A DNA stretch of 35,094 nucleotides, taken from NCBI GenBank assembly GCA_009778875.1, contig WRFI01000005.1, forward strand, positions 1 through 35,094, read 5' to 3'. A program made the translations under genes and the position numbers. This document shows, in pieces, positions 2,276 through 32,133 of the stretch (within the stretch, counting starts at the first letter, position 1; every line of letters begins with the position of its first letter). The stretch is from Propionibacteriaceae bacterium (GTDB lineage: Bacteria; Actinomycetota; Actinomycetes; Propionibacteriales; Propionibacteriaceae). The notes beneath the pieces were generated by a model. The model searched no databases. It had not been told where the DNA came from and worked only from the letters and a program-made list of their open reading frames with translations.

Positions 2276-4244
2276 ATGAAACCAGTGTTCTTGCTGTCGC
2301 AACCTAACCCAGGAGTCGCCGTGCGATCATCCCTTGCCCGACTTGCCGCGTGGCTGCCTATCCTGAAGCGCGACAAAACTGCCCTGCTTTCGCTGGTCGC
2401 CGGTCTGGCGGCCATACTCCTGATTGTTTACAGCTTGATCGTGCGAGTACAGATGTTTTCCCTCGGAACATCCCTTTGGAACGATGAGGCGTTGCTTGCG
2501 GACAACATCGTCGGTAAGAGCTTTGCGCAGATCCTCACCCCGCCGATGTCCAACCTGCCAACCACTTCTGCCGGGTACCTGATCATCGAAAAAGGGTTGG
2601 TACACGTCTTCGGGACAGCAGAATGGGTGCTGCGACTGTACTCGCTAATCGCCTTGGTCCTGCTGCTCATCGTTCAAGGCATCGTGCTGCGCAAGGTCTT
2701 CCACACCCCCTTGGTCTTCGCCCTGCTCTCGGTCGCTCTGTCGTCCGTCTTCTACTACTACATGAACTATTCCGCCGAGGTGAAGCCATACATGGGCGAC
2801 GCGCTGTTCTCGGTGCTCGTCATTCTCATGTATTTCCTTTTCCGGCGAGGACGAATCGGTCCGGTGATCCTCGGATTGTCATTTTCGGTCTGCCTGGTCA
2901 TGTCGTCGCCAGCCGTTTTCTTTGTCGCGGGCACACTGCTCGTCGAGTTTGCAGCCAAACTCCGACGCCGGGACTTCCGTTCGGCACGTCGCGTGATTCT
3001 GGCCGGTGCCATCTGCCTGGCCGTCTTCATCGTCCACTATCTTCTTTGGCTGCGCCCGATTTCCACCGTCCCCGAGTTGACGTCGTTTTGGCAGTGGCGC
3101 GCATTCGACTTTCGCCTTTGGCGCTCCGGCGCGCTCTCCAGGGATCTGGGCCTTGTCTCCGCCCTGTTCCTGCAACTGGGTGCCGCCAAGCTCCTGCTTC
3201 TCTGTCTAGCAGGGGGGGGGGGGAGCGTTTTTGCTGTTCAAGAAAGATATCCACACATTATCGCTTGCCGTGTCATTTCTGATGTTGGCCGTCGCCTCGG
3301 CTCTCGGCCTGTATCCCATGGTTGACAGATTGTGGCTGTTCCTTTATTTGTGGGTATTCATATTTGCCTTCGTGTTTTTGTCTGCTATCCGCCTGGGCAC
3401 CACGGGTGCCAAAGCGGAGCGGCTCGTCACCAGGATTGTCACACTGCTGATCGCCGTGGTCCTGATTCTTTCTTTCCGCAATTTCCCGGACTATGGAGCA
3501 GGTGCCGAGTGGACGCTGGTGCCTGGCAACCAGGCGAACCCCCTGATCGCGTATGTGCAGAAGAACATCCAGCCCGGCGAGACGCTGTACAGCTACGCAG
3601 CGGCGAACCTGATTGTGGAATACAAGAACGGATACAACAACGACACCATCGGCAACGGTTCGACTGACAACATCATATGGGGGACGCCACTGTCGTCAAA
3701 CCCGTCCACCACGTCCGCGTCCGTCAGTGCGGAGGTTTCACGAATTACGAACACCGCCGGCGCCTACGTGCTGTTTTACCACTGCTACCCTCCGCTCAGC
3801 GGCGACCCCTTCCCGGACATGATAACGACAGACCTTCAAAAAGCAGGATACATGGACCTGGTGCTGGAGGACTATTACACGCCGTTGTACTGGTTCACGC
3901 AGGACATGGCAAAGGTGAAGGCCGCCGCGCACCTCGACGCACCGTCCCTGATGACCACACAAGGCACGATCTCCGGCACATTCGTCTTGACAAACACGGG
4001 CAAGACGGTGTTCAGCGCAGATGGTTATGGCTCCATGACCCTGACGATCAGCCGGCCCGGCGACGACGGGCCGCCGGTGGTGTCCGTGCCCTTCGGACAG
4101 GAAATCCTGCCTGGCGGGACGGGACAAATTGACGTGGACGTTGATGGTCTTGCGCCTGGCACATACGATGCCGACGTCGTCTTTCAGGACGAGTACTCAC
4201 TGAGTCAATTGGGCACCGCGCCCATGACGATTGAGGTCACGTAG
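2276..4244 (+). CDS. Large membrane protein (GT-C-like transferase) interrupted at a 12-G tract; candidate phase-variable gene, OFF as written
   Basis: Translation from ATG 2276 (GGAGAA upstream) gives a hydrophobic protein with about eight helices up to residue 312, then a poly-glycine stretch encoded by 12 G (3212-3223). It then runs out of frame to a stop at 3325 (349 residues). The frame one base away continues with more helices (LFKKDIHTLSLAVSFLMLAV) and a ~230-residue extracytoplasmic region ending in a beta-rich domain, with stop at 4244. With 11 G (or 8, or 14) the halves join into 655 residues. With 10 or 13 G the frame stops at 3282. An acidic WNDEALLADN segment in the first loop resembles the acidic site of GT-C enzymes. 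Together with the adjacent gtrA-like gene this suggests transfer of a polyprenyl-phosphate sugar outside the cell. A homopolymer sequencing error is the main alternative. Confidence 0.8.
3212..3223 (+). repeat. Poly-G tract of 12 inside a coding region
   Basis: Twelve consecutive G follow codon 312 of the membrane protein gene and precede AGCG. The tract encodes four glycines with the GGG codon in a loop between membrane helices, where length changes would be tolerated. No other homopolymer of similar length occurs in any coding region here; the next longest coding run is seven C at 10488-10494. Tracts of this length are classic slipped-strand mispairing sites. Confidence 0.95.
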
Positions 4245-4258
4245 GCCGCCTGACGCCC

Positions 4259-5281
4259 TCACGAGCCGGTGTGCGATGGCCTTGGCGCCACGGTGCGCTT
4301 GACGAACCTCAGTGGACCCAGCAGCGCGCGGCCCAGCCGGTATGCCCGGGTGTGCAGCAGGAATTCGACGTCGTCGTCCTTTTCTTTCCACAGATCAAAG
4401 TATCGAGCGCCAATGTAGGTGTCTATCAGCTGAACCGGATAGTCGGTGTGTTTGATGATGAACTCGCGGAGGCCCGGCCATTGGGCGGGCACCACCCGAA
4501 TGGCCTTGGTCTTGATGAACGGGTACGTGTCAACTGTTTCCAGAAGCCACAGCGGCCGGCAGCAGGTGTACCCCGGGTTGTATTTGGCCATGTCCCCGGT
4601 CGATTGGGCGCTGATATCAACCTGAGTTTTGTCCAACTGCGTCATGCCCCAAAACCCGGGTGCGTCGAAAAATGAGTCATAGGTGAACCCGTTTTCAGCC
4701 AACAGTTCTGTCAGCCGGATCTCGTAGTTGGTGATCACGTCGAGTACGTCCGCGAAGTCCTCGATGCTGGCCCAAAAGTGCCTGAATGCCTCGGACTGGA
4801 CGACATTCTGGTTGAACGTCATGAAATAGCTTTGCAGGTGCGTTGGCGCGAAAGTCACCCTGCCGCGGCTGTCCAGTAGCACGTCGGTCAGCGCGATGTT
4901 CGTCGTCATACCCCAGAAATCGGCGCCGCGCGACTGCATTTGGTCGAAAATCGCGCCGAAGTCGAAAAGCGGCCCGAAGCACGTGTCGTTCATCAGCGTC
5001 AGCTGCTCGCACTTGACCAGAGTGTCCCAGCCGAAGTCGTCCATGCCGTCACGCCAGGCCGCAAAGTCGTAGCCAAGGTTCTTCCGTTGGATTAGCTTGT
5101 CGGTCACGCCAGCCAACCTTTTCTCGTCGGCTTCGCAAACAGGCGAGTTGGAGATCATGACAACCTTGTCGAACAGTCTGCGCATCTGCTCAAGCTGGTA
5201 GACCACATAGTCGTCGACCCGGCCGAACTTGTTGAAGTGGGCATAGAACATGACCCGCGTCGAGTCATTCGCTTCGGTCAT
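4259..5281 (-). CDS. Rhamnan synthesis F (RgpF-like) glycosyltransferase
   Basis: 340 residues, with ATG complementary to 5279-5281. The protein matches the rhamnan synthesis F family (RgpF, Pfam PF05045) by recall. It opens with MFYAHFNKFGRVDDYVVYQL, then VVMISNS, NLGYDFAAWRDGM, LTLMNDTCFGP and a WGMT segment, in the order typical of these proteins. The family contributes to rhamnose-rich cell-wall polysaccharides, for example in streptococci, as a cytoplasmic membrane-associated glycosyltransferase. It overlaps the preceding GT2 gene by ATGA, so the two are coupled. The presence of rmlABCD in the same locus fits a rhamnose donor. The gene is last in a minus-strand run and converges, 14 bp apart, on the poly-G gene. 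The RgpC/RgpD ABC exporter that often accompanies rgpF is not in the window. Confidence 0.88.
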   Translation of the reverse strand: MTEANDSTRVMFYAHFNKFGRVDDYVVYQLEQMRRLFDKVVMISNSPVCEADEKRLAGVTDKLIQRKNLGYDFAAWRDGMDDFGWDTLVKCEQLTLMNDTCFGPLFDFGAIFDQMQSRGADFWGMTTNIALTDVLLDSRGRVTFAPTHLQSYFMTFNQNVVQSEAFRHFWASIEDFADVLDVITNYEIRLTELLAENGFTYDSFFDAPGFWGMTQLDKTQVDISAQSTGDMAKYNPGYTCCRPLWLLETVDTYPFIKTKAIRVVPAQWPGLREFIIKHTDYPVQLIDTYIGARYFDLWKEKDDDVEFLLHTRAYRLGRALLGPLRFVKRTVAPRPSHTGS

Positions 5282-11744: not shown

Positions 11745-12707
11745 ATGAAGGCCATCACCATCATCATCCCGGTCTACAACGAGGAAGACTCGCTTGCTCG
11801 CCTCATCGCTCGCCTGGACAGTCTCGCGGACACGCAGAACATGTACCGTTTTGAGTATCTGTTCGTTGACGACGGCAGCAAGGACGGCACTCTGCCACTG
11901 CTAAAGCAATATGCCGCCGCCAATCCGCGGGTTTCCTACGTCACACTGTCCAGGAATTTTGGCCAAGAGGCGGCGATGTTCGCCGGCCTTGACCACGCAG
12001 ACGGCGATGCGGTAATAATCATCGACGCCGACTTACAAGACCCCCCAGAGCTGGTTCCACAAATGATCCAGCTCTGGGAGCAGGGATATGACGATGTTTA
12101 CGCGCGTCGCAACAATCGAAAGGGTGAGACGTGGCTGAAGAAGACCACCGCATCCCTTTACTATCGAATGTTGCAGAGGTCCACCAAGGTGGAGATCCAG
12201 CGCGACACCGGCAATTTTCGCCTGCTTGACCGACGCTGCGTGCTAGCCCTGCGACAGATGCGCGAGCACGAGCGCCAGGCCAAGGCGCTATTCAGCTGGA
12301 TCGGCTATCGGAAGAAGGAAATCACCTACGATCGTGACCCGCGGATTGACGGCCAGTCCAAGTGGAGTTACCCTGCACTCGTCAACCTGGCAATCAACGG
12401 TGTCACCTCATTTACGATTGCCCCTTTGCGTTTCGCCAGCATATCGGGGTTTGTCATATCCTTCGTAGCGTTGGTGTACATCATTATCATTATCGTGCAG
12501 ACTCTGTTCACCAACAACCACCTGAGCGGCTGGCCCGCCATCATGTGCGTTGTGCTGTTCTTGGGCGGAATCCAACTCGTCAGCCTCGGCATAATCGGCG
12601 AGTATATCGGCCGCATATTCAACGAAACCAAGAATCGGCCAATCTACCTCATCGATGACTACCACGCCGGTGGCACCACTACGTCGACGCCATCATCTCA
12701 GGAGTGA
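11745..12707 (+). CDS. GtrB-like polyprenyl-phosphate glucosyltransferase
   Basis: 320 residues. IIIPVYNEEDSL near residue 6, FVDDGSKDGT at ~40-49, SRNFGQEAAMFAGL at ~69-82 and IDADLQDPPELVPQM at 93-107 are the full set of GtrB/ArnC-type signatures. The QSKWSYPALVNLAINGVTSF segment precedes two C-terminal helices, and the protein ends with the typical LGIIGEYIGRIFNETKNRP. The enzyme should make undecaprenyl-phosphate glucose (or another hexose) on the cytoplasmic face for extracytoplasmic transfer. The ATG sits 7 nt after a strong -10, so the mRNA is probably leaderless. Its 3' end overlaps the convergent GT-C-like gene by 29 bp. A second GtrB-like paralogue lies at 15895. Confidence 0.92.
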   Translation: MKAITIIIPVYNEEDSLARLIARLDSLADTQNMYRFEYLFVDDGSKDGTLPLLKQYAAANPRVSYVTLSRNFGQEAAMFAGLDHADGDAVIIIDADLQDPPELVPQMIQLWEQGYDDVYARRNNRKGETWLKKTTASLYYRMLQRSTKVEIQRDTGNFRLLDRRCVLALRQMREHERQAKALFSWIGYRKKEITYDRDPRIDGQSKWSYPALVNLAINGVTSFTIAPLRFASISGFVISFVALVYIIIIIVQTLFTNNHLSGWPAIMCVVLFLGGIQLVSLGIIGEYIGRIFNETKNRPIYLIDDYHAGGTTTSTPSSQE

Positions 12708-14065: not shown

Positions 14066-15634
14066 TCAATTGGAGAGTTTGACCACGATGAAGCCATCCA
14101 CCGCTTCCACAGAACCGTCATCCGGGTAGTTTGGCATGTCTGAAATCACCCGCATCGCCTGCGCGTCGGCCGCCAACTCCGGCGGCATTGAGGAGTCGTT
14201 GCGCACCACCGGGTTGCGGAAGTCCAGGTAGGTTACCAAATAGGTCGAGTAGCTGTACATGTTTGGCATGTCTTCGATCGGGATCGCGAAATAGTTCTCA
14301 AAGTAGCCGAGCGAGATCGTCTGCGGCGCCCCGCCGAACAAGACGATCGGAGTGTCTGAGGTGTAGTGCGGCGTGCTTTGAATTCTTGCGACAAGCGCCG
14401 TCGAATAAGCCTGACCCTGCCGGTTGATCAGGTCCATCTTTAGGTAGAAGACGTTGCTGTAAAGCGCGTAACAAAACGCCATGACGCAGCAGAACAGGAT
14501 GACCACCCAGGAGCCGAGACTCGCCAGCCACGACCTTGCCCGCGACGACGAGCCGAGCCCGCACTCGGCGCACAGGTCCACGACGACCAGCGCGAACGCA
14601 AACACCAACACCAATGAGTACTGCATCAGCAGGTAAAGATAGTCTGGGCTGAACAAGGCGATCGCATTGAGCCCAAGCGGAATCAGACCGACCAAAACTA
14701 CCACCAGGGCCAAGCGGGGCAAGTCCTTGTGGATTCCCTTTCTCACCACGACCGCCGCGAGCAGGCAGAGCACGATCAGCATCGCAACGATGAACAGATA
14801 CGTAAGGCGGTGATCGTTTTGGGTCGGGTCCAGTTGGATTGAAAGACTGTTCTTGAAGAACACGCCGAAAAAGTTGGAATAGGCGAAACCTATCCGTCTG
14901 GGCAGCTCCGACAAAGAAAACCCCGCCAACGTGTCGATGTCTTTGTACCCGGGCCCAGATCCGTGATACGTCATCTTCACGCTGACAACGTACCCGACAA
15001 GACCGCCGATCAGGCCGACGCCCAATCTGAGCGCGTTTTTCAGCACTGCTTTGATGGAAGTGCCAGACAGCAACTGTCGAATCAGAACCAGCACTGCGAC
15101 TCCCGCGAAAAACCCGACGTTTGCCTGGTAGGTTGCCAACGACATGATGAGCAGGGCGATACCGCCTAGAAAGCCGAAACGGAAACGTCCGGTGACAGCC
15201 ACAGCCAGGCAGGCCAGCATGACGGCGAAGAATTTCAGATCCGAGTCCTGCCGGTACGACAGGATGCAGGCAACCGCAGGAAAGGCCGCGAACAGTGCGG
15301 ATAGCACCAAAACCGGAAGGGTGCGTCTCAACTGAAGGCACGCGCCAACCGCGCAGGCGGCTACACTCATGTAGAACACTGCAAGTAGCGAATTCACCCA
15401 CAAAAGATTGAATTGGGTAGACAACAAATCGGGCGCGTTCGCAAACCACCGGCCTGCGCTCAGGTAAAAAGGCTCGTTATTCAACATGACGACCGGGCTG
15501 TCGTGGTTGATCAGGCCGTTCGTCATCAGATACATGTGAATCATCAGTGCAAACAATGCTGTTGAGAAAAACTGGGTCTTCGTGTACTTCGGGATGGAGT
15601 CCCAGGCTCGACGAACCAGGCAGTAAGGTGACAT
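14066..15634 (-). CDS. GtrII-type glucosyltransferase domain membrane protein (paralogue 1)
   Basis: 522 residues with an excellent ribosome binding site (AAGAGGAGGT) before ATG 15634. About ten membrane helices are followed by a C-terminal extracytoplasmic domain of ~110 residues. The early INHDSPVVMLNNE and SAGRWFANAPDLLSTQFN segments and YRQDSDLKFFAVMLACLAV fit the glucosyltransferase GtrII domain family, which includes the O-antigen transferases of Shigella-type gtr systems. It is clearly paralogous to the protein at 16850: VRRAWDSIPKYTK versus VRRVWDLIPGYSK near the start, and shared LYSNVFY, FAIPIED and MYSY segments near the end. The role would be addition of a glucose-like residue from a polyprenyl carrier to surface glycan, outside the cell. 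The two paralogues flank a gtrB-like gene. Confidence 0.85.
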   Translation of the reverse strand: MSPYCLVRRAWDSIPKYTKTQFFSTALFALMIHMYLMTNGLINHDSPVVMLNNEPFYLSAGRWFANAPDLLSTQFNLLWVNSLLAVFYMSVAACAVGACLQLRRTLPVLVLSALFAAFPAVACILSYRQDSDLKFFAVMLACLAVAVTGRFRFGFLGGIALLIMSLATYQANVGFFAGVAVLVLIRQLLSGTSIKAVLKNALRLGVGLIGGLVGYVVSVKMTYHGSGPGYKDIDTLAGFSLSELPRRIGFAYSNFFGVFFKNSLSIQLDPTQNDHRLTYLFIVAMLIVLCLLAAVVVRKGIHKDLPRLALVVVLVGLIPLGLNAIALFSPDYLYLLMQYSLVLVFAFALVVVDLCAECGLGSSSRARSWLASLGSWVVILFCCVMAFCYALYSNVFYLKMDLINRQGQAYSTALVARIQSTPHYTSDTPIVLFGGAPQTISLGYFENYFAIPIEDMPNMYSYSTYLVTYLDFRNPVVRNDSSMPPELAADAQAMRVISDMPNYPDDGSVEAVDGFIVVKLSN

Positions 15635-15894: not shown

Positions 15895-16830
15895 ATGCTC
15901 ACCGTCATCATGCCAGTCTTCGAGGAAGCCGACCAGATCAGTGGCAACGTCACCCGCGTTCACTCGATACTGGCCGACGCCGACATCGATCACCAATTTT
16001 TGCTGGTTGACGACGGGTCGATGGACAACACGTGGGACGAGATCTGCAAGACGACCCAGGCGTTGGACAATGTGGCCGCACTGCGGCTGAGCCGCAATTT
16101 CGGAAAGGAATCTGCGATCTGCGCCGCGTTGCAACGGTGCACGGGGGACGCCGCACTCATCATTGACTCTGATCTGCAGCATCCGCCCGAGCTAATCCCA
16201 GAGATGGTCAGGCTGTGGCGCGAGGAAGGCTACCAAGTCGTTGAGGGAGTCAAACAGGACCGGGGACGGGAAGGGGTGATGTCAAAACTGTTTGCCGGCC
16301 TGTTCTATCGCATCTTCAGGCGGCTCACGGGCATAGATATCGGTGTCGCCTCAGACTTCAAACTGCTGGACAAAACGGTTGTGGATGCGTGGCGGACGAT
16401 GCCGGAGATTGACACCTTCTTTCGCGGCATGTCGGCGTGGCTGGGTTTTCGCCATGTGCAAGTGCCATTCACCGTGGCGCCCCGGGCTGCGGGCCGGTCC
16501 AAATGGTCCTTCCGCAAGCTGCTGCGCCTTGCCGCTAACTCGATCACCGCATACACCGCCACGCCGCTTTACATCGTGGCCATCCTCGGCGCGATTTTGA
16601 TGATCGGCGCGCTCGTCTTGTTCGTCCAAACGCTCATCAACAAGCTGCTCGGCATTGCCAGCGGCGGATTCACCACCGTCATCATCTTGCAGTTGCTGAT
16701 CGGAAGCTGTGTCATGCTCAGTCTCGGCATCATAGGCGTCTACCTATCCAAGATTTATGAAGAAACCAAACGGCGACCACGTTTCGTCGTTTGCGATGTG
16801 CGCAAGCCCGGACTGATGGAACAGGGTTAG
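15895..16830 (+). CDS. GtrB-like polyprenyl-phosphate glucosyltransferase (paralogue)
   Basis: 311 residues. GT-A motifs are IMPVFEEADQI near residue 5, LLVDDGSMDNTW at ~36-47, SRNFGKESAICAAL at ~66-79 and DSDLQHPPELIPEM at 91-104. GRSKWSFRKLLRLAANSITAY precedes two hydrophobic helices, and the C-terminus is LGIIGVYLSKIYEETKRRP. This is the GtrB/ArnC architecture, making a polyprenyl-phosphate hexose on the inner face. The neighbours on both sides are minus-strand GtrII-type transferases (14066-15634 and 16850-18448), which are the natural users of the product. It starts after GAGGAG with a TATAAT promoter, unlike the leaderless paralogue at 11745, so the two synthases may be controlled differently. 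It ends 19 bp from the convergent gene. Confidence 0.92.
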   Translation: MLTVIMPVFEEADQISGNVTRVHSILADADIDHQFLLVDDGSMDNTWDEICKTTQALDNVAALRLSRNFGKESAICAALQRCTGDAALIIDSDLQHPPELIPEMVRLWREEGYQVVEGVKQDRGREGVMSKLFAGLFYRIFRRLTGIDIGVASDFKLLDKTVVDAWRTMPEIDTFFRGMSAWLGFRHVQVPFTVAPRAAGRSKWSFRKLLRLAANSITAYTATPLYIVAILGAILMIGALVLFVQTLINKLLGIASGGFTTVIILQLLIGSCVMLSLGIIGVYLSKIYEETKRRPRFVVCDVRKPGLMEQG

Positions 16831-16849: not shown

Positions 16850-18448
16850 CTAACTGGAGAATTTCACGACGATGACGCCATCGACTTGCACAATTGAACC
16901 AGCATTCGGATAATCCGGTAACGACGAAATCGATGTCAATGCGGCAGCGTCGTTGCCAAGCTCAGGCGGCAGGGAGTCTTTGCTGTACAACGGATTCTTC
17001 AGGTCCAGATAGGTCAGCAAGTAGGCGGGATAGCTGTACATGCTGGGGATATCCTCAATCGGGATCGCGAAGAAGTTGTTGTAATAGCCGAGTGCGAAGC
17101 TTCGGGGCGTCGTCCCGTACAAGACGATGGGCTTGTCAACGGTGTAGTAGTCCTCGCTTTGCAGCCGCGTGACCAGCGTCGTCGAAAACGCTCGTCCCTG
17201 GCTGTTGACGAGGTCCATCTTCGAATAGAAGACGTTCGAGTAAAGGGTGTAATTGAAGGCCGCCAGGCAGCAAAACGCAACTGTCACCCACGAAACAATG
17301 TGAGAAACCAGCAGGTGGGCCGTCACTGGAGATTCCTCGACTGCCTGCTCGGCAACATCCACCAGGACGAGGGCCAGGACAAATAGCAACACTAAGGAGT
17401 ACTGCATCAGAAGGTAAAGATAGTCCGGGCTGAGTATCGCCACAACATTGGTTGTGGGGGGCACCAGAACGATGAGAACGACAAGGCATATCAACCGGGG
17501 AAGGTCAACGAAGACCCGTCGGCTCAAAATCGTGACAACCAACAGCACCAGTACGAGCAATGCCGCAAGGACAAAGACATATTTGCTGGCGAAATAGCCT
17601 CGGTGTATTGCCAGACTGTTCCGGAAGAAAATGTCGAAGATGTTTTGATACGCGAACCCGATGCGCTTCGGCAGCGTCTGGAGCGTGAGCCCAGACAGTG
17701 TTCCCACTCCCTTGTAACCTCCGCCGCTGTACGCCAACCTGACGCTCACAAGATAAACCGAAACACCCACGCCCAGCGTCACGAGGAATTTGGCCGCCTT
17801 CAGCAAGGCATCGGTCATCTTGCCACCCGAAAGCAAATCCCGTATCAATGCCAGCACCGCGATGCCCGCAAAGAAGCCGACATACGCTTGATACGTCGCA
17901 AGCGAAAGCACCAAAACGACCGCCGCGGCGATGAAACCGAAGCGGTACCGAAGCACCAGCCAAGCCGCCAGACATGCCAACAACACTGCCAAGAAGTGGA
18001 CATCGGAGTCCAATCGGTACGACAGTCCGCACGCCACAGTTGGAAACGACACGACGATCACTGACAGAACCAGGCTCATGAGGGTGCGTTTGATGCCCAG
18101 ACAGGCACCGATCAGGGCGACCGCCAGGCTGATGTACAGGATTGAAAGCAGCGAGTTGACCCACATCAGGTTGAAGTTGGTGGACAACACGTCGGGCACA
18201 ATGCCGAACCATCTGCCGTTGTAGAGGTAAGCCCATCGGTTGTCAGCCATCACGGCGACGCTGTCATGGTTGATGAAACTGTTGACCATCACGTACATAT
18301 GGATCAGCAAACCGAAAACCAGGGTGAAACCGAACTGCATCTTTGAGTAGCCTGGGATCAAATCCCAGACGCGCCGCACACCCGTGAAGGGAGACCCCGT
18401 TATCGCAATTCTGGAAAGCAGTGAGCCAGAGCGTTTTTCGCCAACCAT
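16850..18448 (-). CDS. GtrII-type glucosyltransferase domain membrane protein (paralogue 2)
   Basis: 532 residues from the ATG at 18448, preferred because a TAGGTG stretch lies just upstream. An in-frame ATG at 18487 (545 residues) has no ribosome binding site. The architecture matches the 14066-15634 protein: about ten helices and a C-terminal soluble domain, with shared INHDS, GRW, LATYQA.VGFFAG, LYSNVFY, FAIPIED and YLLTYLDLKNP segments. The longer N-terminus carries ~30 extra residues before VRRVWDLIPGYSK. By family it would transfer a sugar from a polyprenyl carrier to an external acceptor. The divergence from its paralogue suggests a different acceptor position or sugar, which is inference. 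It follows the 18540-19937 gene by 91 bp and may share its transcript. Confidence 0.84.
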   Translation of the reverse strand: MVGEKRSGSLLSRIAITGSPFTGVRRVWDLIPGYSKMQFGFTLVFGLLIHMYVMVNSFINHDSVAVMADNRWAYLYNGRWFGIVPDVLSTNFNLMWVNSLLSILYISLAVALIGACLGIKRTLMSLVLSVIVVSFPTVACGLSYRLDSDVHFLAVLLACLAAWLVLRYRFGFIAAAVVLVLSLATYQAYVGFFAGIAVLALIRDLLSGGKMTDALLKAAKFLVTLGVGVSVYLVSVRLAYSGGGYKGVGTLSGLTLQTLPKRIGFAYQNIFDIFFRNSLAIHRGYFASKYVFVLAALLVLVLLVVTILSRRVFVDLPRLICLVVLIVLVPPTTNVVAILSPDYLYLLMQYSLVLLFVLALVLVDVAEQAVEESPVTAHLLVSHIVSWVTVAFCCLAAFNYTLYSNVFYSKMDLVNSQGRAFSTTLVTRLQSEDYYTVDKPIVLYGTTPRSFALGYYNNFFAIPIEDIPSMYSYPAYLLTYLDLKNPLYSKDSLPPELGNDAAALTSISSLPDYPNAGSIVQVDGVIVVKFSS

Positions 18449-18539
18449 TTGGTCACCTATCGGTAAGTTTCCTTGCAACCTTATCATTCGCGCCCGCGGC
18501 TGCCAAGTGGGCGCCCGCTATGGCGCGGCTGGTTTTGGA

Positions 18540-20023: not shown

Positions 20024-21289
20024 GTGGAAGATCAGCTGATTTCACCCAACCGGTCGGTTGGCGTGCTAGGCGCCAGTGCGTGGGCGGCTGTCGTGACCAT
20101 TGTGGTGACGGTGGTTGCGGCGCGTTCGATTGAGGCTTCCGCCTACACCCACTTCCTGGTCTATTGGTCGGTGTTGTTCGGCTGCTTCCAGATACTCACC
20201 GGCTTGCAGAACGAGGCTGTGCGGGCCGTCAGTGTGGCCACTTCGACGGCTGACGGGCAAAGTGAACGTCCCCTGGCCCGCGTGCTCGCCATGACGTTGA
20301 TTCTCGCGGGCGGAGTGGCCGTGGTGGTCATGGCACTGGCGCCCTGGTGGGGGCATCGGCTCGGCGTCGGCGTTGTTGTGGTGCTGGTGAGCGCCGTGGC
20401 CGTGGTGGCCTATGGGTGCCATCTAACTTTGGGCGGCATACTGGCCGGCCGACGCCAATGGGGCACCATGGCGGCCCTCAGCGCCGCCGAGCCGACAGTT
20501 CGCATCGTCCTCATCATCGCGGTGGCGTTCTTGGCGCCGAGTCTTACGTCGCTGCAGTTGGCGGCGGCCCTTCCCGCCCTGACCTGGCTGCTGTTCGTCC
20601 TGGTGGTGCCACGCGGGCGCAGCGCCGCGCTGGCCCGGGCCGACATCCACCTGAAACCGCTGTTGGCCAATGGCGCCTGGGCCATGCTGGCCGCCGCCGC
20701 CAGTGCCGTCCTGGTCAACGGTTTTCCGGCCATTGTGCAAGCGGCCCTGGGCGGCAACACGCCAGACATGGCCAGCCTGCTGCTGGGCGTCCAGTTGACC
20801 AGGGCGCCCTTGATGATGCCGCTGGCGGCCTTCCAGGGCGTCGCCATCGCGGGTTTCGTTGCCAGCCGGGGTGGCCGTCTTCAAGCTCTGGTGAAACCCT
20901 TCGCGGCGGTGGTGGGGCTCAGTGCGCTGCTGGCAGTGGCGGCGGCGCTGCTGGGCCCCTGGATCATGCGACTGCTGTACGGCGCACAATATGTGCTGTC
21001 ACGTCCGGTGCTGGGCGGGCTGACTTTCGCCGCGGCCTCCATCGCACTGTTGACGCTGGCGGGCAGCGCCACAATCGCGATCGGTGAGCACAAGGCGTTT
21101 CTGGCCGGCTGGCTGGTGGGCGCTGCGGCCACCGTCGGCTTGTTGTTCGCGCTACCGCTGGCGGGCGCCGGACGCGTGATCGCAGCCGTCCTGGTGGGCC
21201 CGTTGGTGGGGGTGGTCGTCCACCTGCTGGCTATTCGCAGACACGATCACCAAAGCGATCCAACTCACGAGCAGATCACACAGCGCTGA
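20024..21289 (+). CDS. MOP-type polysaccharide flippase (Wzx-like), paralogue A
   Basis: 421 residues from GTG 20024. The start is supported by alignment of its N-terminus (DQLISPNRSVGVLGASAWAA) with the paralogue at 21309 (DKLITTSRSVSVLAASGWAA). About 12 membrane helices in the arrangement of O-antigen/teichoic-acid flippases are visible, with a FLVYWSVLFGCFQ segment in the second helix. Such proteins flip undecaprenyl-diphosphate-linked repeat units to the outer face. The C-terminal tail is hydrophilic and histidine-rich. It is convergent with its paralogue, 19 bp apart, so the two form an inverted gene pair. Having two flippases in one locus suggests two glycan substrates or a recent inverted duplication followed by divergence. 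Confidence 0.82.
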   Translation: MEDQLISPNRSVGVLGASAWAAVVTIVVTVVAARSIEASAYTHFLVYWSVLFGCFQILTGLQNEAVRAVSVATSTADGQSERPLARVLAMTLILAGGVAVVVMALAPWWGHRLGVGVVVVLVSAVAVVAYGCHLTLGGILAGRRQWGTMAALSAAEPTVRIVLIIAVAFLAPSLTSLQLAAALPALTWLLFVLVVPRGRSAALARADIHLKPLLANGAWAMLAAAASAVLVNGFPAIVQAALGGNTPDMASLLLGVQLTRAPLMMPLAAFQGVAIAGFVASRGGRLQALVKPFAAVVGLSALLAVAAALLGPWIMRLLYGAQYVLSRPVLGGLTFAAASIALLTLAGSATIAIGEHKAFLAGWLVGAAATVGLLFALPLAGAGRVIAAVLVGPLVGVVVHLLAIRRHDHQSDPTHEQITQR

Positions 21290-22577: not shown

Positions 22578-24136
22578 CACCGATGCCCGCCGACTGCGGC
22601 GCGGCGACGCACCAGGAACAGAACCATGGCCAGCAACGCAAAGCCCACGCTGCCGATGAGCCACACCGCGTTGGGCGAAGGAATGCCCGCTCGCCACCAT
22701 TCGATCTGCTTGTTCAGGTCGAGTTCGGGGCCGTCGGTCCCAACGACGTAGCGCCGTATCAGCTCGTGCAGCGCCCAGGATTGGGCCAGCACAAGAAAGA
22801 CGTAGGAGATCACCGTTTGGGTCAGCGACAGGGCCGGCGCGCCATCGCGCTTGCGGCGGCTGAGCACCACCCCCGCCAAGATCAGGGCGGGCGGCACTAG
22901 GTACCGCTGCTGCACTCCTTGGCCGACCTCGTAACTGCTCATTTGCAGTGCGAACAGTGGCACCGCGATGAGCACGAAGGACACGCCACCTGCCGCCAGC
23001 GTCTTCGTCCAAGACATTCGCCTCAGCCCGCCGAACAACAGACCGCCGGCCACCATCAAGCTCAGCACCGTCGTCATCGGCTTCATCGGCACGTCCAGCC
23101 AACCGAGCTGCCCGGCGCCGAATCCGCTGATCAGCTGCGGCAGGGCCGTGATGTTGTACAGCAACAAACGCAGGTCACCGGCACTGTTGCCATCCATGCC
23201 AACCAGCCCGGTCGTTTGCGATCCACTGAAAGTGCCAATGATGCCGACAACCGTGACGGCCAGCATCGTGGCCCAGATCAGTCGGATGCCTCGCCACTTT
23301 GCCGGTCGCATGTCAGGAAGGTGCATGGCGCCAACCGCCAATACAGCCACCACGCAATAGGCGGCCGCGTCCGTTCGGGCCGCTGCGGCAAGCAGTGTGC
23401 CAGCCACCGCCACGACCGCCAGCGCGCGCCGCCGCCACCTCGCTGTACCATCGAATCTGGTCGCAAACAGCCCCGTCATCGCAAACCAGGCGGCGGGAAC
23501 GCCGATGAACGCCCAGGCCGACGGGTTGATCGATGCGATGAAATAGATCACGAGCGGCACACTGAAGCCGACCATCACGTAAGCCAACAGCCGCTTCATC
23601 GACCAAGGCAATAGCCAGGCCAGAACGCCGAAGAACAGCGCCGCGATAAAGGCATTCGCCGAACGCACGAGAAGATTCATCGTGTCCAATTCCGCATAGG
23701 ATCCGGTGGCGAAAATATGCATCACCCTGTAGTAGGTGCCCGGGTATCGGCCGGTGTTGACCGCCAGCGAGTCGGCTCCCGCGTCGGCTGGCACATCGTT
23801 GAGGCAGGCGGCCGAGACTTCCGACCTGAAGACGAAACAAGCCACCTGCATCACGCGCGCCGGCACCATCACCATTGGATGATTCGGGTCGCCGAAGGCG
23901 TCACCGCGACCCACAATCTGGCAGCTGGCAGAACCGGGGCTTGGGCACCAGATGCTGGTCTGATGCTGATCATCGTCAGGACCGCCGCCGGAAGGGGACG
24001 ACACGATCCAGGCGAACGCCGTCAGCGCCCCGCCGAGCAGCACTATCAGCGCGAGTACAACGCCCCGCAGCGTCGGTCGGACTGCCTTCGAACTATCTTG
24101 GATCTGAACCGATTCCTCCACCGCGCTTTTCCTCAC
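22577..24136 (-). CDS. DUF2142-like polytopic membrane protein
   Basis: 519 residues from a GTG at 24136 that overlaps the rmlCD stop by GTGA. A first helix (~residues 27-46) is followed by an extracytoplasmic loop with GGPDDDQHQTSIWC, which matches the acidic PDE/DDxxH signature I associate with DUF2142. Two or more cysteines lie in this loop. About ten further helices follow. DUF2142 proteins are common in actinobacterial polysaccharide loci and look like GT-C glycosyltransferases. The acidic loop could be catalytic and face the outside. Tight coupling to rmlCD upstream and to the flippase downstream (TGATG) places it in the same pathway. Specific substrate unknown. Confidence 0.8.
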   Translation of the reverse strand: MRKSAVEESVQIQDSSKAVRPTLRGVVLALIVLLGGALTAFAWIVSSPSGGGPDDDQHQTSIWCPSPGSASCQIVGRGDAFGDPNHPMVMVPARVMQVACFVFRSEVSAACLNDVPADAGADSLAVNTGRYPGTYYRVMHIFATGSYAELDTMNLLVRSANAFIAALFFGVLAWLLPWSMKRLLAYVMVGFSVPLVIYFIASINPSAWAFIGVPAAWFAMTGLFATRFDGTARWRRRALAVVAVAGTLLAAAARTDAAAYCVVAVLAVGAMHLPDMRPAKWRGIRLIWATMLAVTVVGIIGTFSGSQTTGLVGMDGNSAGDLRLLLYNITALPQLISGFGAGQLGWLDVPMKPMTTVLSLMVAGGLLFGGLRRMSWTKTLAAGGVSFVLIAVPLFALQMSSYEVGQGVQQRYLVPPALILAGVVLSRRKRDGAPALSLTQTVISYVFLVLAQSWALHELIRRYVVGTDGPELDLNKQIEWWRAGIPSPNAVWLIGSVGFALLAMVLFLVRRRAAVGGHR

Positions 24137-25503
24137 TCGACGCCCACCGGATACTGGGGCACCTTGTAGCCGGTTGCTTCCAGCTTGCTCAGGTCGAGGA
24201 CGCTGTGAAGCGGACGCGGCGCGATGCCCACTTTCCCGGCGTAGTACTGATCCGTCGTCACAGGGGTGACGTCATCGGCGCTGCGGCCGTGGGCCACGAA
24301 CACCGCCTTGGCGATGTCGGCCCAACTGATCGGCTGGCCGCCGTCCGTGCAGTTGTAGGTGCCGTAGGGCGCCTGCACGTCCAGCAGATGCTTGATCGCC
24401 GCCGCCAGGTTGGTGGTGTGCGTCAAACGCCCGACCTGATCCCCCACCACCGTCGGCTTGACGCCCCGATCAGCCAGCTGCCCCATCGTCTTGATGAAGT
24501 TCTTGCCGTCGCCGACCACCCAGCTCGTGCGCAGCAGATAGTGACGCGGCGCTACTGAAACCGCCAGATCGCCGGCCGCCTTCGACTGGCCGTAGACGCT
24601 CAGCGGCGCCATTGCGTCGTCCTCGACCCACTGCTCGTGGGTGCCGTCGAAGACGTAATCGGTGGAAATGTGTACCAACACCTGGCGGTGCTCGACGGAC
24701 AGCTGGGCCAGCAGCGCCGGCACGGCGGCGTTCGCCTTCCAAGCCCCGATCCGCCCCTCCGGCGTCTCGGCACCGTCGACGTTCGTCCAACCCGCCGCAT
24801 TGATCACCACGCCGTACTCATGCCACGGGAACGCCGCCACCTGCGCCGGGTCTGTCAGATCCAGCGTGTCGATGTCGAACCGCCCGGCATCGGGCAACAG
24901 CGCGCTCAACGCCCGTCCTAACTGGCCATTCGCCCCCAAAATCAGGGTCTTGCGCGGCAGCACGGCTTTCGCCTCGGCCAGCCGCGGGTGCGCCTTGTCT
25001 TTGTCCGAAATCACCGCCTCGCCAAGCGGAATCGGCCAAGGTATGTTCACAGTCTCGTCAGCCAGGTTCACATAGGCATATGAATCGAGGCTGTCAGCGC
25101 TCCAATGGTCATTCACCAAATAGGAATACGCGACATTGCTCTCCAGCGTCTGGTAGGCATTTGCCACCCCGCGCGGCACAAACACTGCTATCGACTCGTC
25201 CACAATGATTGTGAACACCGTGCCATAACTCGGCCCTTCCCGCAGATCGACCCAGGCCCCGAAATAGCGGCCCCGCGCCGAGGAAACCATCTTGTCCCAC
25301 GGCTCGGCGTGGATGCCGCGCGTCGTGCCGCGCTCGGCGTTGAACGACATGTTGTTTTGCACCGGCTCGAAATCCGGCAGACCCAGCCCCACCATCTTGG
25401 CGCGCTGCCAGTTCTCCTTAAACCAGCCCCGGCTGTCGCCGTGGACCTCCAGATGGATCACCAGCAGGCCGGGAATCGGCGTGACTTCAATGCTCAATGC
25501 CAT
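24133..25503 (-). CDS. rmlCD: Bifunctional dTDP-4-dehydrorhamnose 3,5-epimerase / reductase (RmlC-RmlD fusion)
   Basis: 456 residues with AAGGA before ATG 25503. Residues 1-~180 are an RmlC cupin: RGWFKENW at 25-32, SFNAERGTTRGIHAEP at ~53-68 with the catalytic-type H65, and FVPRGVANAYQTL at ~108-120. Residues ~184-456 are an RmlD short-chain reductase: LGANGQLG at 189-196, ISTDYVFDGTHE at 279-290 and the YGQSK Y304/K308 pair. The fusion performs the last two steps to dTDP-L-rhamnose in the cytoplasm: 3,5-epimerisation, then NAD(P)H-dependent reduction. RmlC-RmlD fusions are known in actinobacteria such as Corynebacterium and Bifidobacterium. The gene begins 3 bp after rmlB and overlaps the DUF2142-like gene by GTGA. 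Both active sites look intact. Confidence 0.95.
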   Translation of the reverse strand: MALSIEVTPIPGLLVIHLEVHGDSRGWFKENWQRAKMVGLGLPDFEPVQNNMSFNAERGTTRGIHAEPWDKMVSSARGRYFGAWVDLREGPSYGTVFTIIVDESIAVFVPRGVANAYQTLESNVAYSYLVNDHWSADSLDSYAYVNLADETVNIPWPIPLGEAVISDKDKAHPRLAEAKAVLPRKTLILGANGQLGRALSALLPDAGRFDIDTLDLTDPAQVAAFPWHEYGVVINAAGWTNVDGAETPEGRIGAWKANAAVPALLAQLSVEHRQVLVHISTDYVFDGTHEQWVEDDAMAPLSVYGQSKAAGDLAVSVAPRHYLLRTSWVVGDGKNFIKTMGQLADRGVKPTVVGDQVGRLTHTTNLAAAIKHLLDVQAPYGTYNCTDGGQPISWADIAKAVFVAHGRSADDVTPVTTDQYYAGKVGIAPRPLHSVLDLSKLEATGYKVPQYPVGVE

Positions 25504-31758: not shown

Positions 31759-32133
31759 GCGCCAACCTCCCGACCCCCTGAGTGGCCGCGCCAGGAGCAC
31801 CTGCCCTTTTGATCCTCCTACGCTGGCCTTCTCCGTTTCCTCTCATTAGTGAAGACGGTAGCGAAAGGCGTTTCATAACACCCCGGAGGTATTTTTTCAA
31901 ACATTTTTTTCAAACAATGTGCCCAGCTGTCGGCGTGGGCATCGTCATGCCACGGGTTTGAAGGCATCTTTCAGGTACCTGCACACGCTCAGAAGACCAC
32001 CCCGGCGTTTCGCACCACACATTCTCTCGTCAGGAAGCGGTGTTCTTTGTGTTGTAGGCTTCGGCCCCGGCCAGAAGCTTCATCATCGCCGGTCCGTCCA
32101 TGTCCGACCACGTCACGAAGTAACTCGGCTTCG
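31759..32133 (-). other. Non-coding gap with one possible 35-codon reading frame
   Basis: No convincing gene is seen. On the minus strand a TTG overlapping the stop of the AlbA-type gene (TTGA, 32137) opens a 35-codon frame to about 32031. Its product includes YFVTWSDMDGPAMMKLL and has no recognised relatives. It may be a chance frame or gene debris. Two near-identical 12-13-bp units, ATTTTTTCAAAC, sit in tandem at 31891-31915. Confidence 0.4.

Follow-up and report, generated by a model that had tools for sequence, protein, structure and literature searches.

The window that we analyzed is a whole contig of 35,094 nucleotides from a draft genome of a Propionibacteriaceae bacterium (2.18 Mb in 283 contigs, 76.5% complete). 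Three of its genes lie on one strand with short gaps between them and encode a GT2 glycosyltransferase, a small GtrA-type membrane protein and a larger membrane protein whose coding sequence is interrupted at a run of 12 G. Because an RgpF-like gene converges on this unit from downstream, the interrupted gene is the last one in it, and switching would affect that gene only. The features discussed below are:

717-1706, + strand: GT2 glycosyltransferase that opens the three-gene unit (PF00535, E 2e-15)
1748-2251, + strand: GtrA-type small membrane protein, putative polyprenyl-phosphate-sugar flippase (PF04138, E 3e-17; start codon chosen by eye)
2276-4244, + strand: interrupted gene for a predicted GT-C/PMT_2-like glycosyltransferase, 655 aa at 11 G, with a C-terminal region outside the membrane part (homologs at 32-63% identity, PMT_2 matches in relatives, conserved motifs)
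2276-3325, + strand: open frame as sequenced (12 G), 349 aa, cut off in the transmembrane part
3212-3223, + strand: 12-G homopolymer proposed as a slippage switch (OFF at 12 G, ON at 11 G), one nucleotide longer than the spacing in ten homologs
3224-4244, + strand: intact 3' portion, open to the C-terminus of the protein family and, at 12 G, in another frame than the start
4259-5281, - strand: RgpF-like rhamnan synthesis gene, convergent neighbor (PF05045, E 3e-57)
11745-12707 and 15895-16830, + strand: two GtrB-like GT2 genes, assigned by eye, interleaved with the GtrII-type genes
14066-15634 and 16850-18487, - strand: two GtrII-type glucosyltransferases (PF14264)
24133-25503, - strand: RmlC-RmlD fusion in one frame, dTDP-rhamnose synthesis

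Several GT2 genes and further membrane proteins are also present, and by its predicted gene products the region is a rhamnose/Galf-type surface-glycan cluster. The GtrII-type and GtrB-like pairs form further gtr-like sets within it. Two tail-to-tail paralogs, at 20024-21289 (+) and 21309 to about 22600 (-), encode multi-spanning, flippase-like proteins that are alike along their length and gave no Pfam match. The three-gene unit resembles a gtr cassette (gtrA-gtrB-gtrX) in that a GtrA-type protein is encoded beside a multi-spanning transferase, but no adjacent GtrB, that is, a GT2 with two C-terminal transmembrane helices, was found, the GT2 at 717-1706 appearing unlike GtrB by sequence.

The G tract and its reading frames

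Translation from the ATG at 2276 yields 349 aa at the deposited length of 12 G, with a stop ending at 3325, whereas 10 or 13 G yield 334 or 335 aa, where the stop ends at position 3282 of the deposited sequence. Lengths of 8, 11 and 14 G open the frame to 654, 655 and 656 aa, respectively, all to the stop at 4242-4244, so that a change in tract length toggles the frame of an otherwise intact gene. The split gene lacks visible decay, since neither half contains another stop and both have a coding-type G+C content by codon position (0.60/0.41/0.73 in the 5' part, 0.54/0.43/0.75 in the 3' part), a composition that is also that of the surrounding genes. A promoter-like site at 2248-2277 was discarded because it overlaps the start codon.

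The tract is the longest homopolymer of the window, followed by C8 at 34532, C7 at 10488 and T7 at 31904. A sequence-only reading of the window had already described a 12-G run splitting a 655-residue membrane protein, the outcome of each of these tract lengths, the lack of a comparable run in other coding regions and the position beside a GtrA-type flippase; our translations, homopolymer list and PF04138 match, with the glycan cluster around it, agree with it on each of these points. Across the draft genome the tract is the only G/C run of at least 10. Counting G runs on both strands, there are 510 of at least 6, five of at least 8, two of at least 9 and one of at least 12, the others of 8 or more being one run of 9 and three of 8. 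Run counts thus fall by a factor of about 0.09 per added base (roughly eleven-fold), which leads to an expectation of about 2.5e-4 runs of at least 12, a crude extrapolation from a two-point fit to the runs of at least 6 and at least 8. A model of independent bases, which expects about 1.8 runs, overpredicts runs of at least 6 by 4.6-fold and those of at least 8 by about 40-fold, and was hence unusable. Furthermore, GGG makes up 22% of the glycine codons in the window's genes, and four consecutive GGG codons are therefore unexpected from codon usage. The homopolymer at 3212-3223 exceeds the genome's own expectation and does so within a coding region. The second-longest G/C run of the genome, a 9-C run on another contig (L052:1168-1176), lies between a pntB-like gene, which ends a few bases before it, and an open frame that begins about 66 bases further on.

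The interrupted gene and its homologs

The product of the interrupted gene matched no family in Pfam or NCBIfam, PF13231 (PMT_2) included, and PHROGs gave no informative match. A profile built from its homologs found no relative in the PDB, and an AlphaFold model of one homolog (pLDDT 39) was too low in confidence for a fold search. However, two close homologs match PF13231 weakly (E 0.0074 and 0.0053), and a profile of five homologs reaches actinobacterial membrane proteins with open frames of about 500-650 aa, among which two distant relatives score above the PMT_2 cut-off of 26.1 bits (29.1 and 29.9) and two others below it. The window protein has about ten hydrophobic segments, with a W-x-D-E motif after the first membrane segment (invariant W68, D70 and E71) and an S-x-E-x-K motif conserved across homologs, both of which we read as in keeping with GT-C enzymes whose substrates are polyprenyl-phosphate sugars. 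It is thus predicted to span the membrane several times, and an acidic motif follows its first segment, both as expected of GT-C enzymes. Its most likely identity is a GT-C (PMT_2-like) polyprenyl-phosphate-sugar glycosyltransferase. The earlier designation as a gtr-type transferase is apt as far as the adjoining gtrA goes, but the protein is not of the GtrII type, its link to PMT_2 runs through relatives and the neighboring GT2 appears not to be a GtrB.

The ten homologs share 32-63% identity with the window protein, and all come from the orders of two Clostridiales assemblies: MAG Lab288P4bin39 (63%), where Lab288 denotes the soil-feeding termite Labiotermes labralis (PMC7024585), and a Clostridiales Family XIII MAG (42%), with eight more homologs from the same orders. 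The family is multi-copy in some of the genomes that bear homologs; in one of them, two of the ten (L088 and L096) are divergently oriented copies side by side on one contig, with a third copy elsewhere. Read at 11 G, the tract segment of the window protein is CLAGGGGAFLLFKK, and the corresponding segments of the homologs are VLAVCGVIVTVVKR, PLTVCGFAISLARR, VLAGAGFLVSLARR, ALAAAGFVVSLLRR, VLAAGGVLVALARR, ALGAAGFLVSLLKK, AFGAMGYIISLFKR, FLAPAGFVISLIRK, AFALFGFVFSLLRR and VFACGGFVCSLRKR. None of the ten has a homopolymer at the tract position, and none has an indel in the segment relative to the 11-G reading; small insertions upstream of it occur in two (one and four residues). Summed over a core of 13-15 residues, BLOSUM62 scores against the ten homologs reach 139 with 11 G, compared with 79 at 8 G and 46 at 14 G. 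Because the alignment is free of gaps in the segment and these scores favor 11 G, we take 11 G as the family length and the deposited 12 G as one base too long. At 8 or 14 G the frame would be open, but a segment of invariant length across the family would be altered in length.

Measured in five rows, the segment proves hydrophobic (mean 1.6 to 2.3). Basic residues lie at its end, and it holds one glycine that is invariant in the family. By prediction it is the middle of a transmembrane helix, which is at odds with the earlier view that the tract lies in an interhelical loop tolerant of length changes: no homolog shows an indel there, and the 8-G and 14-G forms would change the length of the helix. 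Four glycines within a membrane helix may carry a cost to stability. Where relatives use ordinary codons (for example for AVCGVI or AAGGVL), GGG codons stand here with the invariant glycine kept, a replacement that, if the switch is real, illustrates how one arises.

None of six congeners has the gene, nor does any other member of a 198-genome set from the host's family. The window protein is 63% identical to the homolog from the L. labralis gut, compared with 43-48% among the clostridial proteins of the first alignment; since it is closer to that homolog than those proteins are to each other, it is a fair inference that the gene was transferred between phyla. The plasmid collection gave no DNA match, and a single-protein search of viral contigs gave no relative and so no sign of a phage-borne copy. 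The termite study behind the closest homolog also reports 12 Propionibacteriaceae assemblies (PMC7024585). It is plausible that the window comes from a termite gut, and the host probably lives in the gut of an insect.

Probable phase variation at the tract, and known systems

Our best reading of the locus, and in our view a probable one, is phase variation by replication slippage. Slipped-strand mispairing at the G run would add or remove bases during replication. With 11 G the full GT-C-type polyprenyl-phosphate-sugar glycosyltransferase would be made (ON), whereas with 12 G, as assembled, the frame would be lost inside the helix that bears the tract, with the stop at 3325 (OFF). Switching would remove one transfer step only, the gene being the last of its GT2-gtrA-GT-C unit, and would leave a fraction of the population without one decoration of the cluster's surface glycan. 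A tract that is the only such run, the 11-G spacing of the family, the intact halves of the gene, the glycan context and actinobacterial precedents all speak for switching; that the genome holds a single such tract speaks against it, as organisms relying on poly-G switching often carry many, and so do the possible cost of the four glycines in the helix and the mostly clade-wise tract lengths of P. acnes. The tract, its frames, its uniqueness in the genome, the 11-G spacing of the family, the intact coding sequence on both sides and the gene context are what the sequence shows; slippage in vivo, enzyme activity, a glycan phenotype and a selective advantage are predictions.

The foremost alternative, which we consider unlikely, is that the homopolymer drifts slowly or the gene is a very recent pseudogene, one frameshift having abolished the enzyme without any adaptive switching. 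In P. acnes, homopolymer changes are clade-wise and slow and include deteriorating genes (PMC4746626), and the gene studied here is accessory, being missing in congeners. However, a second lesion is absent from both halves of the 1.97-kb gene, and the tract replaces, in this lineage specifically, what is non-homopolymeric sequence elsewhere in the family, a change that a single frameshift does not explain.

Somewhat less likely again is an error in the assembled length, the true run being 11 G and the gene intact, though still slippage-prone. An assembled 12-G run can be one off. Illumina sequencing breaks down past G tracts, and the lengths deposited can differ from those in the population (PMC9187656). 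Several G/C runs in congeners also suggest artefacts: in two of these genomes (G004 and G006), runs of 11-25 at or near contig ends, found at four loci (L057, L062, L065 and L075), are likely the product of reads or assembly, which calls for caution in poly-G surveys of draft genomes. Runs of at least 11 G/C are present in 111 of the 198 genomes of the family set, a survey that we treat as background only because several of the runs sit at contig ends and look artefactual, and because in G+C-rich DNA open frames did not separate genic from intergenic runs cleanly. One 16-G run, in G004 (L060:1502-1517), lies in the 3' part of a frame for a LuxR-type response regulator, 60 bases from the contig end. 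The tract studied here, by contrast, lies within a 35-kb contig and not at its end, flanked by intact coding sequence, and its G-rich sequence is real at whatever exact length. Transcriptional slippage, in which RNA polymerase would slip on the long homopolymer and a loss of one G or a gain of two would restore the frame in some of a mixed pool of mRNAs, so that the 12-G allele always gave some full enzyme, seems very improbable, as the actinobacterial G-tract precedents have been attributed to changes of tract length in the DNA (PMC9187656; PMC4365076), and a ribosomal -1 shift does not restore the frame of that allele.

If replication slippage does operate here, an uncultured gut actinobacterium would diversify its surface glycan by the slippage trick of pathogens, pointing to pressure from phages or competitors in the gut habitat. 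A broader proposal, which we put forward as possible but tentative, is that a GT-C gene for a lipid-linked-sugar transferase, exchanged between phyla, gained, within the sequence for a transmembrane helix, a poly-G switch private to its propionibacterial host, and that this would be a first case, for this family of gut Actinobacteria, of surface-glycan decoration turned ON and OFF by replication slippage. In the literature searched, of which coverage was partial, we found no paper on an actinobacterial GT-C transferase with such a switch.

Intragenic poly-G tracts in Neisseria and Campylobacter, which belong to other phyla, switch the addition of one sugar, as proposed here, although the known cases act mostly through nucleotide-sugar enzymes and not GT-C membrane enzymes. 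The gtr cassettes of Shigella and Salmonella likewise place a GtrA-type protein beside a multi-spanning glycosyltransferase; unlike the unit described here, they have an adjacent GtrB, and the Salmonella gtr operons are phase variable by transcriptional switching (Dam/OxyR), not through a homopolymer. The poly-G phase-variable glycosyltransferases of Neisseria and Campylobacter are also mentioned in the study of Bifidobacterium breve pili (PMC9187656).

Poly-G switches are already known in Actinobacteria, and the novelty for the phylum implied by the sequence-only reading was overstated: G-tract ON/OFF control is published for B. breve pili, for Streptomyces pglX and for M. tuberculosis (PMC11898584), and variable tracts for Cutibacterium. 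In B. breve, pilus genes (bbr_0113 and bbr_1889) are split by a G tract, with about 37% G11 and 60% G12 in culture (PMC9187656). Like the present locus, this sortase-pilus switch belongs to an actinobacterial gut commensal and acts on a surface structure through G11 or G12 in one CDS, ON and OFF being one base apart; it differs in that the pilin gene heads its operon, the tract is near the 5' end and mixtures of lengths were measured, whereas our case is built on sequence. The family set contains a genus of nine species (genomes of 2.2-2.8 Mb) that bears CAMP factors, five of them in one single-contig genome, which fits Cutibacterium and hence Propionibacteriaceae. P. acnes (Cutibacterium), inferred to be of the same family as our host, has 54 variable homopolymers, 96% of them G/C and some of them intragenic and frameshifting (PMC4746626). 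There, 72% are intergenic, with tract lengths that vary mostly clade-wise, which the authors ascribe to slow accumulation and not active modification, and the intragenic examples considered are not GT-C transferases (PMC4746626). Finally, pglX of Streptomyces coelicolor, a phage-defence methyltransferase gene with an 8-G tract, differs from our gene in product and tract length but is likewise an actinobacterial gene with an intragenic G tract, and there the ON/OFF switch is reversible (PMC4365076).
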